From the NCBI RefSeq assembly GCF_932294415.1, contig NC_065535.1, forward strand, positions 92,458,862 to 92,522,861: a DNA stretch of 64,000 nucleotides, in the 5' to 3' direction. The notes under the pieces are model-generated. The model was not told where the DNA came from. It saw only the letters and a list, made by a program, of their open reading frames with translations, and did not search any database. This stretch comes from Quercus robur. Taxonomy: Eukaryota; Streptophyta; Magnoliopsida; Fagales; Fagaceae. The position numbers and the translations under genes are program-made. Each line of letters begins with the position of its first letter. The first letter of the stretch is position 1. This document shows positions 5,393-26,655 of this stretch, piece after piece.

Positions 5393-7649
5393 TTAAATAC
5401 AAAGAGAAAGAGAGCTAATGAAAGAAGGGAGAGAATCACTAGTCGTGAGTACCCAAGCCCGAAACCAATCAAAAAGAGTCCCACTAAAAGAAGCAAGCAT
5501 CTGATCACCAAAACTATCCAAATCCTCAAAAGTCCACATATTCCGTTCCTTCCAAATACACCAAAAGATGCACAACGGAACTAAATCCCATATTTGAGAC
5601 GAGTGCTTCCTCAACCAATTCCACCAGCCAAAAAGCAAATCTGGGATCGATCTAGGTACAACCCAAGACAGGCCAAAAGTTATAAAGACAAAGCTCCATA
5701 ACCGATAAGCCATCTCACAATGAAGAAGTAAGTGATTTACCGTCTCTCCACAATGTTGACACATAATGCACTAGTCCACAAAAACCAATCTCCTCAATCT
5801 TAGATTATCACTCGTTAGGATCTTATTCCAAGCTACACACCAAACAAAAAAGGAAACTCGCCTAGGGGCCTTTACTTTCCATATAGCTTTCCAAGGAAAG
5901 ACAATTGAAGGAGAATTCCTTAATTTGTTATAATATGACCGGATATCAAAATCCCCATTAAGCTTCAACTTCCATCTCATCCGATCTCCCACATCCATTG
6001 GAGGAGTATTAGCTCCCAAAATACGAAGAAAATGCAGCCCTTCATCCATCTCCCAATCATTAAATTCTCGAATAAAACGAACATCCCAAATTCTTCTATC
6101 CTCCGCCCCCTGCCTTGACAAAGATGCTTCAACAGATACCTCCTTATCAATGGCAATACCATACAACCTTGGGAAAGCCAAGTGAAAAGGTTGATCCCCA
6201 CACCATCCATCCTGCCAAAATCTCACTCTATTCCCCAACCCAACAACAAATTGACAATTTTTGCTAAAATCCTCCCATCCCATGCGAATACATCTCCACA
6301 AACCACACCCATGAACTCCCCTACCCAGTTTTGAGGTCCAACCCCCCCATTCTTCCCCATATTTTGAAGTTACCACCCTCCTCCATAACTGATCCTCTTC
6401 CTTCCTAAACCGCCACAACCATTTCCCCAATAAGGCCTTATTGAAAGTAGTAAGTTTCCTTATCCCCAAACCACCATTAACTATAGGCGCACAAACTTTA
6501 TCCCATCCTACTAGATGAGTTTTGCTATCACCCCATAGAAAATCCCTTTGCAACTTTTCAATTCTATTAGCCACATGAGTAGGAATTGTGAATAGCGATA
6601 GAAAATAGGTAGGAAGACTAGATAGTGTACTCTTAAGTAACATCAATCGACCCCCCTTAGACAAATACAGCTTCTTCCACCTGGCTAATCTCCGCTCAAA
6701 TTTTTCCAAAATAGGATTCCAAATTAAAGGGGAATTATGTGAAGCCCCCAAAGGCATGCCAAGATAAGACATAGGCAACTTTCCAACTTTGCAGCCCAAA
6801 ATTTCAACCAGGACATGCACATCATCAACCTCCCCTATTGGAACCATTTCACTCTTATGCACATTAACCTTCAAACCTATTACCACCTGAAAACTAAGTA
6901 ACAACAACCGAATATGAAAGATTTGCTCCACATCCGCATCACAAAATAGGATAGTATCGTCTACAAACAGTAGATGTGTAACACATTCCCCACCACCCCT
7001 CCTACCCTCAACCTTAAAACCACGGATCAAGCCAGCTCCCTCCACTCTTCTCAACATCCTACTAAACACCTCCATCATAATCAAAAACAGCATAGGAGAT
7101 AGCGGATCCCCTTGTCTTAAACCTCTTGAACTACCAAAGAAATCAGCTGGAGACCTATTAATCAAAACAGAGAATTGAACTGTGGATATATAAGTACGGA
7201 TCCACTTACACCAATTCACTCCAAAGCCCATTCTATGCAACAAATTCAACAAAACCTCCCAATTCACATGATCGTAGGCTTTCTCAAAATCAAGTTTACA
7301 AATGACTCCAAGAACCCTACTCTTCCCTCGGCTATCCACACTCATTCGCAATAAGAACTGAGTCAAGAATTTGTCTCCCACCCACAAAGCTATTCTGAGT
7401 CTCAGAAATCAACTGATCTAAAACCACTCTCAATCGATTTTCCAAAACCTTAGACAAGATTTTATACATACTCCCCACCAAGCTAATAGGTCGAAAATCT
7501 CTAATATTAGAGGCATCATTCTTTTTAGGAATTAATGCAATGAAGGTAGCATTAAGGGATTTTTCAAACTTACAATGTTGAAAAAACTCTTCAAAGACCG
7601 CTAAGATGTCTTTCTCCACTACTCTCCAATAATGATGATAAAATGTCAT
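5393..7649 (-). pseudogene. LINE reverse transcriptase, inactive
   Basis: Translation on the minus strand reads [33 protein letters not shown] and RQGDPLSPMLF, the order of fingers and palm motifs of a plant LINE reverse transcriptase. The catalytic box reads LLFVDDTILF, so both aspartates remain but the usual Ala of F-A-D-D is Val. The C-terminal part carries a zf-RVT-type CxxC..H..H motif (CQHCGETVNHLLLHC). The frame is broken at least twice: a frameshift near 7335-7390 just after the [13 protein letters not shown] block, and an in-frame TAG at about 5768-5770 between FVD and CIMCQHC. No endonuclease domain is left. The protein cannot be made as one chain. Confidence 0.93.
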
Positions 7650-16452: not shown

Positions 16453-19400
16453 CTATTGGCTGTTTGTTCCTAATGATGATGAGGGGGCATACTTCTCCAT
16501 TAGCTGGGTTATTTCAGTTTCATACTTCTTCTCCAGCTCAACCTCTTCCTTCCAGTACCTCTGCCTTAGCTTTCGCTTCATGTATTCATGATCTCTATCC
16601 AGCTTATCCCTCTCATCTACAAATTGTTCCATCTCTTTGTCCTGGAACTGTATGAATCTAGCAATTTCCTGCTGCCTATTGGCAAAAAAACATTTCCAAA
16701 TATTAAAAATCCATATGACTTAATTGTCAACAACTAAGTCTCACTTACCAAGTTAGTCAAGTTTTTGTAAATAAGTATCAGGCAATGTCATTGAGCTACA
16801 AGGTTATTGGCTCTTTGGCCTGGGTGACGAATTGGAACCTTTTGGTAATGTAAGGCTTAAGGAAACCTAAGGTACTTAACAGATCAAAACTTCAATTATC
16901 TTTTAGGATACCAGTTAGCTGTAGAGAAGGTCAGACTTTTTTTTTTGGGGAGAAGCGCGAAGGGGGGGGGGGGGGGTTAGGTCTAGGTAAGACATTGTTA
17001 CCTAATTCTTAGATCCTCTATCTTAGATGAATTTGTCATCTTCACTTTCTCTCGCTCCTGCTGTTGTAATTGCTCAAAACTATCTTCCTTTGCATCTATA
17101 GCTTGTTGAATAGCTTTGATTTGATCCTTAAAAAATTGTTCTTGGGCATCCATCTAGAAAAGAACACAATACATATTCAACATCAGTGAGGGAAAAATCA
17201 AATGGACAACCAAATATACTCTTTAATGAAGAACAATGAATGCTCTAACACAAAAGTTGATGCAACATAAAATAGCAAAAATAATTGTGGGAAACAAATG
17301 TAATAGGGAAAAAATAAACATAGGAATCAACAACTAGAGTTACTTGGAATCAGACCTGGCAAGAAAAAGGAATCAAAATCTAGGAATCAACACTTGCTTG
17401 GAATCAATAACGAGTCATCAAAAAAAATTCCAACACAAATTGTATTGATCAAGCATATAATCACAATACTAAACTTTGGGGCCTTTAAATAGAAGTCAAA
17501 AGTTTTTTTTTATTTAAATTTTATTGATAATTCGATCGTTACAACAATGGAGGAGTGCGGATTTGAACCATAGTTCTCCTTATAAAGGAGAGCAAGAAAT
17601 GCCACTAAATTACAAAGTTCATAACAATAGGGATCCAAATTACATCAAAGAAGGAACTAACTTTTTAACCAAATAAGGGAAGGAAACAAAATCTGAACCA
17701 AGTAAGAAAGGTAATAACTCTGAAAAAATTACATAAAAACAAATAAAAAAATTAAATTCCTAAATTAAAGAAGTTCATTAAATCAATCAAGCCCAACTGG
17801 CAGTGGGCCTCCATCATCCAGCAATGGATTGGGGCCTATATTTTCTGTTTGCATTACTCCTCACCATGATAGTAACCCTTATAAAGATGAGATCACAACC
17901 ATCAATTCAATTAATCTAATTCTTCTAAATCTGCCTACTTTGAGTCACATGACTAATTAAAAAGTTATGAAATTTATTAGTGGTCACATGGCTCATTCAA
18001 ATCTAACATGAAGACCTTCTCCCCTCTCCCTATGTGTGTGTGTCTTAAAAATATTTAGTATTCTCAAAAAAAAAAAAAAAAAAAAAATTATCACTTTGAT
18101 CCTCCATTACCTTACCTTACAAAAAATATTGCCTAAACACACCTGCATAGAGACCATCATACAAAGAACAACCAAACCCAGGTTTTCACCCACTCAAAAC
18201 ATTAGGTCCAGATGAACCTGGCAAAGGCAATTTATTGGAAATCTTAGATGACTTTTATACTCAAATGCTAATTGCCTCACTTCATCTTCCCTCCCACTTC
18301 CTCAAGGTGTCCATTCTACTGTTAACACACCCTATCCAAACCGGTACTCTGTCTCTAATCATTCTGTTACAAGGGTCATGAAGTCCACCCCCAAAAAACA
18401 TACATACTATGCTAACTCATTCAATAATATTTTTCTACCATGATGCATGGACATTCAAACAAGAGGCAGAAATTAAGAAATATGAAGATTCATTAACAAT
18501 TCAATATAACACAAACTATGTGCTCTTCTATAATTATTTGGGATAAGAATAAAGGGAGATGTAAAAATTCTAGAACAAGTGAGTAAGCCAAAGTAAACAT
18601 ATATAGGAATATAGGATAATCAATAATTAGGAAAACAGATAGGAAAAGTGATTCAAATTAGATGGATGCCCATGTTTTAGAAGGAGAACAAACAGTTGAT
18701 GGACTGCTAAACATGTTTCTGTAGAAGCAATGCTGCCCCTGGAAAATGATCTATGCACTCTGGCTTTCCTCAGAGATATGTATCTTGTAGATTCACAAGT
18801 TTATATAAGAAAGTAGAGGTAATAATTTATAAATTGCATTTAGATACAGTAGCAAGATGGTGGGTACCATAAATTAAATTATGACATCCCCTAGGCGAAA
18901 AAAGGGCAAAGAATAATGTGAAAGTAATCTAACTTCAACAAAGTGCCTTTGAGAGAAGACATAAGGAACCCACAAGAGTGTCCAAGTCATAAAGAAATAT
19001 ATCATATGCGTGAGAATACATGAGATATGAAGAGGTTGATCCGTGGTTTTATAGGATTCAATACCTTTATAGGATTTAAAAATGTATTATAAGCATCTGA
19101 GGTTTTAAAGATTCTTTGTCTCCATAAGATTTTATTAATTCAAGCAGAAGCACCAGCAAAAGTGGCCACCTTGAATGTCCATTACCAGAAAAGTTCATCA
19201 CAGCAGTGTTAAGCAGTAAAATGTGTTGATTAAATTGAATCAACATAACATCTTCTTTCCCACACACCAAAATACTTCTAGAAATAATAAACTCCCTAAT
19301 CCAAAACATTACCTCCTCTTTGTTCTCCTCACGCTGTATTTTAATTCGCTCTCTGACAATACGATTTTCTTCTGTTGCTCTACGCAACTTCTCACTGACT

Positions 19401-21438
19401 TGAGATAGAGTAGCTGCCAGAGTTTGTGAATGCTTCTTCTCTTTAGCAACCCTTTCTTTAAACCAGGTAATCTGCTGTTTATCATCATTTATATCCTTTA
19501 TCTTGCTCTCAACCATCTCTTGGTATGATCTCATCTCAAATTTCAAGTTGGACCTACCTAAGCAATTGCACAGCTTTTTAAATACAGCATGCTTATGAGT
19601 CTATATATCCTCCAAGAATAATTTAAGATACAGTTAATTTTAGGAATAAATAAGAAAGACTAGTGAAGAAAAAAGGTCACTTGTTTTTGGAGCAAGAAAA
19701 TGTGTTTGAACATACTTTAAAATAAAAATATGCTCCCCCCCCCCCCCCTCCCTCTTTTCCACTTTTCTTTTTTGGGTGTCCTAGGAAAAAATTGAATGTG
19801 AAACTAACGCTTCCATTTGCATGTAACTTCCTACAAATTGTCATATTTGTTAAGCAAATTCCTGCTTAATAAGACAATTTTTAGACTCCCAACCTAGGAC
19901 ATACATACCAGAAATTTTTGATATAGTATAATAAACAGCAGTCTGACTCCTATGTCAACATCATTACATTATGCACCATGAAATTGGACCAAAAGAGAGA
20001 TAGAGAGAGAACCATGGGCATGTTGGTTGAAGATATCCAAGTCATCTTTCACAACCATGTAACCATAAAGTTGACGCTTCCCACCCAGACAAAAAGGGGT
20101 CTTACAACGACCCCACGCATCCCTATCTCTTCCTTGCTCTTTGAAATGTTTATGCAAACGTGCAGCCTCTAAATACCCTGATGCCGAGCTCTCAAAGATT
20201 AGCACACTGATGCCTCGGTGCCCTTTTGGACCATATGAGTGTCGAGCCTTCAATGCAGAGTACGAGCTAAAGTAATCAAGAAGCTCTTGATTTCCCATTC
20301 CGTTCCACTAAAAATTCAAATTCATAAAAGGAAAAATATTAAAAATATTGATTGAATATTAAATTCAAGAAATCAACCCTGCTCCTTTTCCAGCCACCTA
20401 ACACCCCCCCCCCCCCAAAAAAAAAAAAGAAGAAGCATATTATGGCTGCAATGCACATCAGTGATAGGAAAATTAAAGAAAGAAAAAATAGTTTAAGCAT
20501 TCATATCATAAGCATAGAGTAGAATATGACAACACCTTATTGTTGTCATCCTGCTGATATCTTGTGTTCATTATGACAACCATTGGGGGCCATACTATTT
20601 CATGATCATTAACCTTTGCATCTAGGCCTTCCCATTTACCATATGCTTCACCAGATAGTGTCAATGAAGTTCCCTTCCTTTGCAACTCCTGATCCAAGAT
20701 TTCGACAAACTTCCTGTGGAGCTTTACTCTTCTTGCCTGTTTGTTTCTGGCATGATGCATTAAGGGCTGCAGGCCTCGATACCAATCAATGGCACCAGGA
20801 GCCCCTTTGCATGCTGGGCAGTGCCACTGCCTTGAGGGTAAATTGATCTCCTCAATAGGCAGTTTATCCATAGACTCAAAGAATGTCACAAACCACTTGC
20901 TCTTCTTGAGTGTCTCATAGCTCACTTCACTTGAATCTAAATCAGAGTCATAATTTGAGAGATCATCATCACTATCACAAACAATCTCAGAGTGATCATT
21001 ATCATTCTTCTCATCATCAACACAGTAGGAGTTTGAGATGATTTCATCATTCAACAGGCCATTTTTTGAGTCACTAGATTGAGTGTGATCAGCTCCAGCA
21101 GACCAAAATGATCCTTGCTGTAGGGGTGGAGATACTACAGGTTGTTGGCCAATGTAATTATTTTGCCAAGGACCCTTAGACTGTTGGATCCATGCATTTA
21201 CTCTGTCATTGGAATTCTTAAGATCAGCATTTCGTGTCTGCATAGAATTCTGAGGAAACCAGGGTCTTGCAACACTACTTCCAGCTCTGTTATATGACTC
21301 CCGTGGGGTAACATTGCAGTCACTAGCTTTTGAATTTAGATTGATGTTTGCTATATGATGATTCAATTGATTAACCTGAGGATGAGTGCTTTTATATACA
21401 CTTGAGAGCTTGGGAAATGGGTCGGCATTATCAGCCAT
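16453..21438 (-). CDS. SGS3: SGS3-like RNA-silencing protein
   Basis: Five coding exons: 20536-21438, 20013-20307, 19313-19557, 17002-17153 and 16453-16675. All junctions are GT..AG and phases agree, giving 605 residues from the ATG at 21436-21438; Arabidopsis SGS3 is about 625. Domains in order: a low-complexity N-terminus with an acidic run (CDSDDDLSNYDSDLDSSEVS); a zf-XS zinc finger (WHCPACKGAPGAIDWY, with two later His); the XS RNA-binding fold across exons 1-2 (YGPKGHRGISVLIFESSASG); and a long coiled coil across exons 3-5. SGS3 binds and protects cleaved RNA and works with RDR6 in cytoplasmic bodies to make secondary and trans-acting siRNAs. The N-terminus lacks the usual EWEV-type segment I would expect, and the reading frame stays open upstream to a possible acceptor at 21521, so an extra 5' exon may exist. 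It may be an SGS3 paralog. An upstream Pack-MULE and a partial copy at 8.7-10.9 kb are nearby. Confidence 0.92.
17505..17625 (-). mobile_element. tRNA-like SINE fragment in SGS3 intron 4
   Basis: The complement reads AATTTAGTGGCATTTCTTGC ... ATGGTTCAAATCCGCACTCC, which has the look of a tRNA-derived head with a B-box-like GGTTCAAATCC, and ends in an A-rich tail (poly-T at 17503-17512 on the plus strand). It lies in the intron between the coiled-coil exons and does not touch splice sites. Confidence 0.45.
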
Positions 21439-23934
21439 CAAAGGATTTCCACTTGCCTTCTCTGGAACTTGTCGTTGTATGAATTCCTGTTTGTGTATAA
21501 TTGTTTCAAATACAAAATTCTGCAAATAGTTGAATATTTAAAGAAAAAAGTACATGACTGTTGCAGTCACTAGTTCAACCAAGCAAAGGCAATGTACTAA
21601 GTTTGTGATATTAGAAATATGAAATACCATATGGTTCAAGAGATGTGATTCTAATTCGTATGTACATGATAGATTATTGTTAAAGATTAACAACCTACCA
21701 AGACTACTAATTGAAAATTCCTTTATCAGCTTTTAACAAGATGCCATGGGTGAAATAGTCAATAAAGTACTCTCATTTGTTTCATTTGTCAATGCTACAC
21801 ACACTAGCAGTACTCTAATCTAAATTACTAACACACAACCTAACAGGCAAACCAATGGCCTGTGACCAATTTTAGACAATGATGACTTTGTAAATCCTTA
21901 ACATGTGAAGAAATAGAGCAGTACACTGCTGAGAAAGAACTTGTCTTCTGGAAAATAAAGGTAACTGAGCACATAAAAATCCAAGGAAAACCATGTATAT
22001 TATAAATTGAGCCGATGACTGTCATTTAAAACTTCAATCAAAATGATTATGAATTTGGGCATGACATTTGAGGTGACCTGATAGAATCAAATTTTAGATC
22101 CTAACAATTCTAGTATTAGTTTTAAAAAAGTTTTGCTGATCAAATTCCAAAAAGGAGCTATATTGAAACTTGGGATACTGATTTCACAATTTAAAGATGA
22201 AAATGACTATAGCATTATGTAGGCTAATTAGAGAAGATTGGGCAAAAAAAGAGGAAAGCTTGATGTATCAATTATCATACAAAGTTAATAGTGTAAATAA
22301 AGAATGAGATGCATCCTCCTAAATAACTAGCAGCAGATGGCTTGAGTAATTAAATTTGTGACAAACTTTGTCTGAGATGTTAAAGACTCAATTGGGACTT
22401 CAAATTTTAGTCTATTAGAATGGTGACTCAATATCATAGCCTATAAAGAACGCATATTTGTACAAGGTTGAAATGAAAATGAGATTCCTTATAATGCATT
22501 TAACAATCTAATTGCAAACAAGAGTTTCAATGCAATTAAGTTGCAGGTCACAACATTAACAAATAACATAAAATAAAGCTTAGCAATTTCTAGCATCAAG
22601 TTGTTGTGGCAAGTTAATCAACTCGTGAAGAACAGATTATACCATCTCTATCTGGGTTCAATCTAATCCCTGTTTTTTTCTTCAATGGATCAATGTATAA
22701 AAAAAGATGCAAACTTTATAAAGCAGCATTTGAAATTGCCAAACAAAGGACTGAAAATCATCAATGGGACAATGCAACCCAGAAAGAGAGAGAGAGAGAG
22801 AGAGATTAAAAGCATACCAAAGAGAAACATAAGAAATACATGTAGTGAGAGGATGTGACACTAACATTAATGCAAGCAGATGGAAAACAAAAGTTACTAT
22901 TAAAGCATTGATAGAAATTGCACACAAAGCAACTAGAACCATTCATATATCATCAAAACATTATCTACCCGTTTGAAAGCTTGCATTTCCCATTCAAGTA
23001 AACAACTTTTTCCTTCCACAAATCATGAAAGTGACATATATCATATACATATACATAGCCAAGAACAATGACACAAGTTGATGATAATGCAAATATTATA
23101 AGCATGTAGAAAGAGATTGAGAAAATGGAATAGAAGAGTGGATGATGATAATACCAATACCAATATCAATGGGTGCTAAATTGGGTATTGAATTTGAGCT
23201 GGCAGGAAAAAGAAGCAATGTGTTACGTACGTAGAGAATGGCAATTGCTTGACCGTGCAACGTACCAGGGCTCTGGCCTCTGGGGACACTACTCTATGCC
23301 AATGTTTTTTTTTATTTTTGGACCCCACAAGGATAAGGTGTTGTACGGCCCTGTACTACTGCCTCGGTTCAACGCAGAACTACACAACACACCAAAAACT
23401 AAGTTTGCTAAGGTAATTTTATTTTATATTCTTTGGTTAAATAGAATTTTGTGTTTCCCTTTTAAAAAAAAAAAATTGTGTTTGCATAAGTCAGATGAGG
23501 GATACACGTGCGACTTAAGCCCACAGCCCACCCGTGCACGTAGCCCACAACACGCGTACATGGGGCGAGGGATCAACCCTTATTTTTTAGAAACAAATAC
23601 ACGCATATAAGGGAGAGAGAATGAGATTGTAGAATTCAATCATTGGGTTTTGTAATTTGTGGGGTCACTATATATATCTTGAGAGTAGAGAGAGACTTGT
23701 TGAAAACAAGGTAAATGGGTGCACATAACAAACAAGGTCATGCATTGAAACTGATCTCAATGTCAACACAATTTACGGTCGGTTGGTTAGAAAATCTGCC
23801 GAAGACCAAAAATAAGTCACATAAGGGAAAAAAAAAATTTATCTTCCAAAGAACCACCGATAAGCCTATGACCTTATCCCCAATTGAACCTTGGACTAAT
23901 TCAAACCCTAATTATGGCCCCAACTCTCGAAAAA
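21439..23934 (-). promoter_or_regulatory. Upstream region of SGS3
   Basis: No second gene is seen. The part 21521-22315 is shared with the partial SGS3 copy and probably represents intron or 5' leader. A GA run lies at 22784-22806. The complement around 23100-23210 could be a 5' leader. No TATA box could be assigned with confidence. The left end of the Pack-MULE begins about 2.5 kb upstream of the ATG used here. Confidence 0.35.
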
Positions 23935-23943
23935 TATAAATTA

Positions 23944-24367
23944 GGCGAAAAACACATTTTGGTCCCTACATTTTGACCCGATTCCCGTTTTGGTCCCTAA
24001 GTTTTTTTTTTACCGCTTTTAGTCCCTCTCCAGAAAAATGGTTCCATTTTAGTCCCTGCCGTTACATCAGAAACGGATATTGCTGACGTGGCAAACGGCA
24101 AAGTCAAAAAATAATAAACTAATGCCCACGTGGCCTAAATTAATAATAAAAAATATTTTTTAATGCCACGTCAGCATCTAAATTAAAAAAAAATAAAAAC
24201 TCTCATAAAAAAAAATCCTTAAATAAAAAAATTAATTTATTAATTCTAACTAAATAAAAAAAATTAAAAACTCTCATAAAAAAAAAAAAAAACTCTCATC
24301 AAAAACAAATTTAAAACTAAACCCAGCAAGAACAACCCAGCAAGAACAAACTAAACCCAGCATAGAA
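23944..24367 (+). repeat. Left terminal inverted repeat of the Pack-MULE
   Basis: It pairs with 25316-25742. It contains GCCCACGTGGCC, a perfect CACGTG G-box core, and the ACGT-core words GCTGACGTGGC and GCCACGTCAGC. The inner edge reads AACCCAGCATAGAA. A doubled word AACCCAGCAAGAACA occurs near the inner edge. Confidence 0.93.
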
Positions 24368-24858
24368 ATGAAAAAGGTCGTGCAAGAACATCTTCATAAC
24401 TGTCCCCCTCTCTCTTTGTTCTGCTCGTGCAAGAACATAATTTTCACAGACACATATTCAACATGGATTTATTTCAACCTAGAGTTTGCAACAGAAAACT
24501 GAACTATAATCCCAAACAGATACTTTAAACACATTAAAACCAAAATTTGAACAAAACCCAGAAAACCCAATAACCAAAAGCCACCACAAAGCCAAAGAGC
24601 AACAAGAATCGGATCCAAAGAGAACGCAAAAAAGAAACCCACAAATATAGTCAGAAAACAAAGAAAAACATCGAATTCAATACCTATGAACAATAAAACT
24701 AAACAAATATATAAAAAAGTGGAAAAGTATCCTTACAATGAATCAAAGTTTCTGGGGTTTATGCAATTTTTTTAGAAAGAAAAAAGAGAAACAAGCGAAT
24801 TTTAAATTTTTTTTTCTGCAATCCTAAGGATTAATCACACACGAACAAGAGAATAGCA

Positions 24859-24934
24859 ATGGCAGACCAACTCACCGACGACCAGATCTTTGAGTTCAAG
24901 GAGGCCTTCAGTTTGTTCGACAAGGATGGCGACG
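24859..24934 (+). pseudogene. Captured calmodulin exon 1
   Basis: The ATG at 24859 opens [20 protein letters not shown] followed by DKDGD and the first base of a Gly codon, then GTCAGA. This is the calmodulin N-terminus up to the first EF-hand loop, and the 76-nt length with a split Gly26 codon is the conserved exon 1 of plant calmodulin genes. The remaining exons are absent, so no calcium sensor can be made. Plant calmodulins usually have Ser where this copy has Phe at position 11. Read-through of the old donor site gives a chimeric 66-codon frame ending at 25059. The upstream bases with CACACACGAACAAGAG look like a real 5' leader. The parent gene is not in the window. Confidence 0.93.
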
Positions 24935-25315
24935 GTCAGATTCTCTCTCCTCTCTCCGATGTGTCTTTTTTTATTATCAGATCTACTTCTTTGTTGGTCC
25001 AACGTTTTCGCTGTCTTTCGTATGATTTTTCCTTGTTCGGGAAATGTTTTGCGTTTTGATTTTTTGTCCTAAAAATGAAAATAATTCTGTTACCAGAATT
25101 TCTATTTATATTTATTTGTTCATCGTTTGCTTGCTAAGAAAGCTTTGGGAAAAAAAAATAAATAAAGAGATTAACGAATTATATGATTGAATCTCAGATT
25201 TGGAATTTCCGAGAAAATAAAAATTCTTAAAACAACTCTTGAGTGCTCAATATTTTGTGAATATGCCTAGACTCAACGTGGGTGTGAAACAAAACAAATG
25301 AAAAAGGTCGAATTA

Positions 25316-25742
25316 TTCTATGCTGGGTTTAGTTTGTTCTTGCTGGGTTGTTCTTGCTGGGTTTAGTTTTAAATTTGTTTTTGATGAGAGTTTTTTTTTT
25401 TTTTTTATGAGAGTTTTTAATTTTTTTTATTTAGTTAGAATTAATAAATTAATTTTTTTATTTAAGGATTTTTTTTTTATGAGAGTTTTTATTTTTTTTT
25501 TAATTTAGATGCTGACGTGGCATTAAAAAATATTTTTTATTATTAATTTAGGCCACGTGGGCATTAGTTTATTATTTTTTGGCTTTGCCGTTTGCCACGT
25601 CAGCAATATCCGTTTCTGATGTAACGGCAGGGACTAAAATGGAACCGTTTTTCTGGAGAGGGACTAAAAGCGGTAAAAAAAAAACTTAGGGACCAAAACG
25701 GGAATCGGGTCAAAATGTAGGGACCAAAATGTGTTTTTCGCC
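25316..25742 (-). repeat. Right terminal inverted repeat of the Pack-MULE
   Basis: Inverted partner of 23944-24367, with the outer end reading GTGTTTTTCGCC and the same G-box core GGCCACGTGGGC. Differences from the left arm are mainly lengths of T runs. Confidence 0.93.
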
Positions 25743-26655
25743 TATAAATTATAGTAAGGGAGGAAGAGGTGAGGTTTGAACCATATATATTGAGACACCA
25801 TAAAAGATAACATTAACACTAATCTATCACTTGAACCCCAAAAAGATAGATATACTGTTTATACTAAACTTTTCCACTGTAATTGTGTGGTTGAATTTAA
25901 TTTGAGAGACTAAGGGCTAAGACACAATAGTTAAGGAATTGTATATAAAACATAACACTTAAAGGGTTTATACAATTGTGGGTGTTTTATTAGATAATAA
26001 ATCATACAAATTGAATTGAATTGAATTGAATTGAATTGTCTTTCAAGAAAGATAATACATCAATGCAGATTCAAAAGGTGTTTCTTTTTCCAATGATAAT
26101 AATTAAATTCAACTGTTTAGCAAAAAATAATTAAATTCAACTATGTGCTTCAATTTGTCAATTTCGCCACATAGTTGAATTTAAATAGAAAACCCTAAAA
26201 GTATATAGTTGAAATAAATAAAAACACTTAAAATAAGTGTCTAAATTTTGCACTGTAATAAGCAATTAATTTAGCACCATAGCTTCTATTATTATTATTA
26301 TTATTAAGGGGAAAAAGGGTAAGTGGTGAGATAGACTATGTTATGAATATGACCCCAATAGCAAGATTTAAATAGTTTCAAATAGTGCTCTCTTAAACAA
26401 GCTCAGCGACAGATAGTCATTATTTTGTGTTTTTGCTGTTATTTTATATATTGTTAATGAGAAAGTTGACTATAAATTGTTTGTGTTGCTTTTATATTCA
26501 GTTTTAGTGACCAGAGAAACACAAAAATTAAAGTGCCAAAAAAAGAAGAAGTCAAAAGGTGAAAGGGATGGATCTAAAACAAATCAGCAACAATAACAGC
26601 CTGAATAGGTCAAAAGAATACAGTGTGAGTCAAAAAAACAAAAACAGGAAATTAA
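25743..26655. other. AT-rich intergenic sequence
   Basis: No gene is seen. It includes about five tandem copies of the pentamer TTGAA (26011-26038) and a short ATT run at 26288-26306. Confidence 0.5.

Follow-up and report, generated by a model that had tools for sequence, protein, structure and literature searches.

Introduction

The closest described systems are the Pack-MULEs, Mutator-like elements that combine long terminal inverted repeats (TIRs) and a 9-bp target-site duplication with an interior that holds no transposase gene but a fragment of a host gene whose donor lies elsewhere, and that occur in more than one copy. An earlier note on the DNA described here had presented such an element as a rarity in a eudicot; this was overstated, for an excerpt of PMC3310237 tabulates Pack-MULEs for Arabidopsis (46) and tomato (220). 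The excerpted text of PMC3276141 describes maize Mu18, a Mutator element that carries a calmodulin fragment together with part of another gene, ARF15; that element is from maize, we liken it to the one reported here by cargo, and the excerpt is silent on the order in which its pieces were captured.

How Pack-MULEs acquire genes was called perplexing in 2021 (PMC8277862, in part). For the Pack-TIRs of animals the same excerpt puts forward two models, gap filling and fork-stalling template switching (FoSTeST), with a microhomology of 1–36 bp (median 2) at one or more breakpoints in 67.6%; these are animal elements, mostly hAT and Tc-Mariner, although the authors call the bearing of their models on plant Pack-MULEs worth exploring. 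Cargo drawn from several loci is also described, and in maize a second gene piece was inserted stepwise in a subgroup of the elements of Zm-Pack-PIF cluster 18 (PMC8903248, in part). That cluster belongs to the PIF superfamily, however, and in the excerpted text it is read as compatible with neighbouring insertions and not as microhomology template switching.

The element that we describe from Quercus robur is ordinary in kind and unusually well resolved. Unlike other Pack-MULEs, it can be compared with surviving donors and with a surviving sister that lacks its second fragment, and its two captures can be put in order base by base. Among publications on Pack-MULEs with calmodulin or microhomology, judged by titles and the beginnings of abstracts and hence no proof of absence, we recognised no base-level nested capture in a plant Pack-MULE. 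The matches listed for sequential acquisition were unrelated, save one with a single use of the term Pack-MULE; Pack-MULEs were absent among the matches listed for oak and chestnut; and three strings from the TIRs had no match in a search of literature text.

Results

The Element and Its Ends

The DNA analysed, which we call the window, is a stretch of 64,000 nucleotides (C2:92458862-92522861) from a genome of which we searched 786 Mb in 42 contigs. Positions 23944-25742 of the window are a complete, nonautonomous Mutator-like element. Its left TIR (23944-24367, 424 bp, plus strand) aligns to its right TIR (25316-25742, 427 bp, minus strand) with two substitutions, at both of which the left arm has T and the right arm C, and three one-base gaps in A-runs. 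The arms are well beyond the 100 bp that marks a Mutator-like element, and the exact 9-bp target-site duplication that adjoins them (TATAAATTA, at 23935-23943 and again at 25743-25751) falls within the expected 8–11 bp. Between the arms lie 948 bp, which on the sequence matches consist of donor-derived DNA, element backbone and short fillers, with no coding sequence for a transposase.

The same element type occurs at a second site, C4:24792223-24793752, as a 1530-bp sister with TIRs like those of the window element and its own exact 9-bp duplication, TAGTTTCTT. The two copies thus stand at different sites with different target duplications, as expected of mobile DNA, and a 424-bp inverted repeat flanked by an exact 9-bp repeat, found again in a sister with another 9-mer, is not chance. 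The inverted repeats of about 425 bp, the exact duplication, the Pack-MULE structure with captured calmodulin exon 1, and the youth of the element (here 2/424 between its TIRs) had all been reported in the earlier note, and all stand; the repeats were not found without their target duplication. A search of the 64-kb window found no second copy, and the exact TIR pattern had 0 matches in viral contigs.

Element-derived sequence extends inward from both TIRs. On the left, 24368-24380 (plus strand) completes the motif AAATGAAAAAGGTCG (24366-24380), and on the right, 25276-25315 (plus strand), beginning ACGTGGGTGTGAAACAAAACAAATGAAAAAGGTCGA, belongs to a stretch of about 41 bp found in seven other family members with other cargo. 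The 15-nt direct repeat of AAATGAAAAAGGTCG on the two sides of the cargo was considered as a scar of capture and rejected, as the motif is part of the element and recurs in members with other cargo. Where cargo meets backbone on the right there is a 10-bp filler (25266-25275, plus strand), outside the aligned donor block; the sister has the same filler, and the family members compared have other bases in its place.

The Calmodulin Cargo

From an ATG at 24859 there follow 25 codons, that ATG included, and one further base that match calmodulin, up to a GT at 24935, and the peptide of this 76-nt exon 1 (24859-24934, plus strand) retrieves calmodulins from PDB with a best E of 7.1e-14, as expected from the earlier note, which had named the conserved exon, its donor site and part of the intron. 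A query of window 24768-25300 finds four places in the genome: the window itself, the sister on C4 and two calmodulin loci on C35. One of the latter, C35:34614774-34615291, is 92% identical to the query and is the likely donor; the second calmodulin gene, at C35:50555095, reaches 87% over 151 query bases. The parent gene that the earlier note had supposed to lie in the same genome is therefore present and intact: its exon 1 (76 nt, ATG at 34614864) and an exon 2 that begins at 34616084, after CAG, together encode a calmodulin of 149 aa with Ser at position 11. The captured fragment, for its part, does not continue into a full gene outside the element.

The captured block of the donor, C35:34614733-34615291, measures 559 bp, made up of a 131-bp leader, exon 1 and the initial 352 bp of intron 1; the acceptor before exon 2 (C35:34616084) lies outside it. 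In the element these parts are found, all on the plus strand, as two blocks of 5′UTR (24403-24438, which matches C35:34614733-34614768 at 97% over 36 bp, and 24766-24858, placed by alignment to the donor), exon 1 with the replacement S11F relative to the donor, and the 5′ part of intron 1 at 24935-25265, from which 23 bp of the donor's 352 nt are deleted. Codons 1-25 and one base of codon 26 are all that was captured of a protein whose function calls for four EF-hands.

The left edge of the cargo has a further feature. Before the main block stands an extra 20-bp copy of calmodulin 5′UTR (24378-24397, plus strand), identical to donor C35:34614755-34614774 and likewise present in the sister; it has TCG in common with the element motif and is directly followed by a 5-bp filler (24398-24402). 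This templated repeat suggests two successive strand invasions.

The calmodulin leader named in the earlier note has proved to be composite, for the two 5′UTR blocks are genuine but 335 bp between them (24435-24769) come from an unrelated locus on C5. Of the promoter and start codon that it also saw in the cargo, the start codon is there, at 24859. The promoter is not: capture began at donor base 34614733, 46 bp beyond the start of the nearest upstream TATAAAA (C35:34614687), and the core promoter thus stayed outside, which corrects the view that a calmodulin promoter is part of the element. If transcription begins about 30 bp after the TATA-like box, the captured block would begin just inside the transcript. 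A candidate calmodulin TATA box in the element itself, TATATAAAAAAG near 24708, was rejected, as it lies within the piece from C5.

The Second Fragment

Window 24430-24780, used as a query, finds three places: the window, C5:28581723-28582034 (98%) and C41:22146664-22146987 (86%). The fragment at 24435-24769 (minus strand) follows C5:28581723-28582034 with five differences in 312 bp (98.4%) and then, after a jump over 71 nt of C5 at 24743-24746, a short second block. With C41 as outgroup, two of the five differences fall on the window side, two on the C5 side and one in a gap; the C5 and C41 loci are alike over just some 430 bp (85%) of the 20 kb compared.

The likely donor of this piece is the C5 locus, and the gene to which it belongs can be proposed from composition. 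The plus strand of the piece is very rich in A, its T-A skew falling as low as −0.8 (that of the calmodulin intron is +0.65); the minus strand has the look of an exon that closes with ATT, followed by GTAAGG and a T-rich stretch. It is most likely an antisense 5′UTR exon with its first intron. About 2.6 kb downstream of the putative exon begins a hAT-derived coding frame of 713 aa (minus strand, from an ATG at position 2433 of the stretch L013, C5:28577000-28586999; PF14372, 7.2e-36; PF05699, 2.6e-29), which is the likeliest candidate for the gene of this exon. The same 10-kb stretch holds, on one strand and a few kilobases apart, the hAT-transposase-derived frame and frames with FAR1 and MULE-transposase domains, and the captured piece sits between the former and the latter.

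The sister element places the two fragments in order. It carries the calmodulin cargo with the same edges as in the window, including the 20-bp filler and the 10-bp filler on the right, and therefore both elements derive from one capture; it has no counterpart of window 24439-24769. The donor and the sister both read GAACAT-CTTC-ATTTTTT...AAAG (uninterrupted, ...GAACATCTTCATTTTTT...AAAG), and the window reads GAACAT, then the C5 piece, then ATTTTTTTAGAAAG, with CTTC missing. Since donor and sister are uninterrupted where the window has the C5 piece, that piece is a gain in the window lineage only, made into an already captured leader.

Each of the three junctions of the second capture has an overlap of 4 bp between the sequences that it joins: ACAT at 24435-24438, TCAA at 24743-24746 and ATTT at 24766-24769. 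The first and third give the same result with the C35 donor as template. When breakpoints were placed at random in the same sequences (200,000 draws each), overlaps of at least 4 bp arose in 2.8%, 4.1% and 2.8% of cases. At the third junction there is a T-run, of 6 T in the donor and 7 T in the window, and the exact string over it is absent from the window, the C4 template failing by a change private to C4 and the other template by one T. These microhomologies suggest repair with template switching.

The TIR Family

The TIRs belong to a large family from which we scored 40 of 1883 first-look candidates, so that all counts are lower bounds; beside the window element there are at least 39 more, in keeping with the earlier note's expectation of other copies, and these (L012 and L015-L052) are the best-scoring places and not a random sample. 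All 39 have two inward-facing TIRs that match those of the window element, and their lengths run from 1.37 to 1.79 kb. Of these, 36, the C4 sister included, are flanked by a duplication that is exact over 9 bp or more, a count that is generous in that a 3-bp slip of the ends was allowed and several duplications are A/T runs; in L022, L027 and L050 the duplication is not exact.

The interiors of the 40 elements fall into nine groups of 10, 8, 7, 7, 2, 2, 2, 1 and 1 members, the calmodulin pair forming one of them. L033, L035, L044, L046, L049, L051 and L052 have a common interior, and within it L033 and L051 carry a kinase fragment, which in L033 is closest in PDB to CIPK23 (E 9.2e-52) and CIPK24 (1.2e-47); this CIPK-like fragment is a second calcium-signalling cargo of the family. 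Polyubiquitin frames are present in L026 (by Pfam) and L031 (longest frame 192 aa), and L022 has a leucine-rich-repeat fragment with a likely donor at C2:81342665-81343328 (96%, on the sequence match). With CIPK-like kinase, polyubiquitin or leucine-rich-repeat fragments in some of the 40 members, this is a family that captures genes repeatedly. L020, L034, L040, L043 and L045 contain repeated ATGAAAAAGGTCGAGTTTATGTTCTTGCTGGGTTT units inside the element, and one frame of L045 had no Pfam match.

Discussion

We consider it highly probable that the oak element is a young, complete, nonautonomous Pack-MULE whose cargo was acquired in two steps of template-switching repair before an ordinary Mutator-type transposition. 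In the first step, common to the window element and its sister, repair synthesis inside an ancestral element would have switched template to the calmodulin gene on C35, copied 20 bp, jumped back by about 40 bp and then proceeded through 559 bp of donor, from the 5′UTR across exon 1 into intron 1. In the second, confined to the window lineage, a break in the captured 5′UTR would have been repaired by copying 335 bp from the C5 locus, with three switches at 4-bp microhomologies. The enlarged element would then have transposed by the usual reaction, leaving its 9-bp duplication, with a MULE transposase presumably supplied in trans. The fillers of 5 and 10 bp at the first capture fall outside this account. 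A break, a polymerase path, a repair mechanism and a transposase are what we infer; they are put forward to account for the donor matches, the nested order, the microhomologies and the differing target duplications that we observe.

A different view of the element is that it functions, as a chimeric gene or as a source of siRNAs that regulate calmodulin. The start codon opens a read-through frame of 66 codons, the donor splice site is retained, and the right TIR has five candidate acceptors, use of which is predicted to give fusions of 37–83 aa; siRNAs and transcripts of Pack-MULEs are known in general, according to excerpts of PMC8277862 and PMC13317346. Set against this are the absence of the calmodulin core promoter from the cargo, the splitting of the leader by the second capture and the pattern of change since. 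Over 490 comparable columns of calmodulin cargo, two changes are private to the window element, four to the sister, and nine separate the donor from both. The two substitutions in exon 1 are both nonsynonymous (S11F in the window, T6I on C4), and coding constraint is not visible, because both alter the protein; in a sample that is small, of the six changes private to the window element or its sister, four are C-to-T or G-to-A. Few as they are, these changes look like those to be expected of methylated, unconstrained sequence. We therefore think a function of this kind unlikely. The element probably makes no useful protein and seems to be a decaying passenger, probably silenced, without a useful product. 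It is recent by the measure of its ends: its TIRs differ at 2/424, those of the sister at 11/434 (12 mismatches in a BLAST alignment), and its mismatch rate per aligned base is the lowest among the 40 elements, whose TIR alignments span 175–520 bp.

As to how the cargo was gained, two nearby elements could have moved as one and carried the DNA between them. Such neighbouring insertion has been proposed for Pack-TYPE elements, and the maize Pack-PIF cluster, with its second insertion in a subgroup, offers an example (PMC8903248, in part). In the oak element, however, the second capture lies inside the first cargo and shows no remnant of a TIR on either side, it derives from another contig, 71 nt of its donor are skipped, and 3/3 switches fall at 4-bp microhomologies; the first capture, moreover, has the templated 20-bp repeat at its left edge. 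Around the donors on C5 and C35 (stretches L013, L054 and L059) we found no full TIR, just brief stretches rich in A that match the TIR beyond its position 230, which is the weak point of the argument, as a flanking pair of long ago may since have disappeared. Taken together, the nesting, the templated repeat and the switches at three 4-bp overlaps lead us to favour repair with template switching over co-mobilised neighbouring elements, and we regard the latter as quite improbable.

The order of the captures would be undone if the sister had once possessed the C5 piece and then lost it. Divergences alone do not order the captures, that between window and C5 (5/312) being not smaller than that between window and sister (6/490), and this much is in favour of a loss. 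Such a loss would nevertheless have had to restore the order of the donor, including the CTTC that the window copy lacks, and we judge it very improbable. No third element with calmodulin cargo was found, the genome search with the cargo giving the window, the sister, the donor and the second calmodulin gene. That the inverted repeats and cargo are an artefact of assembly or segmental duplication is scarcely credible, for we saw no point in its support, the target duplication is exact, a sister with a different duplication stands elsewhere, and 304 bp of left flank have no other match in the genome search.

What survives here is a rare dossier from one genome: two donor loci, an intermediate (the C4 sister), the finished element and siblings that carry different cargo. 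We tentatively suggest, holding it somewhat short of an even chance, that the TIR family captures serially: repair synthesis within an element would jump again and again between chromosomes by way of short microhomologies, and cargo would grow by nested pieces. If that is true, the calmodulin element would provide, from a plant and with its donors and intermediate still intact, a case able to discriminate template-switch gap filling from neighbouring insertion.

The surroundings of the insertion can be described briefly. An empty paralogous site was not found, the 304-bp left flank being without other match and the right flank matching just a short repeat; about 100 bp adjoining the right target duplication (25745-25844) are an old dispersed repeat with 37 other places at 74–85% identity. 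The window also contains, at 5771-7408 on the minus strand, a 545-aa frame for a LINE-type reverse transcriptase (RVT_1, 1e-22; zf-RVT, 2.5e-10) and, at 19076-21537 on that strand too, a gene that has zf-XS and XS domains and perhaps a coiled-coil exon and that we take to resemble SGS3, an RNA silencing factor. The Pack-MULE lies about 2.4 kb upstream of the first recognised exon of this gene.
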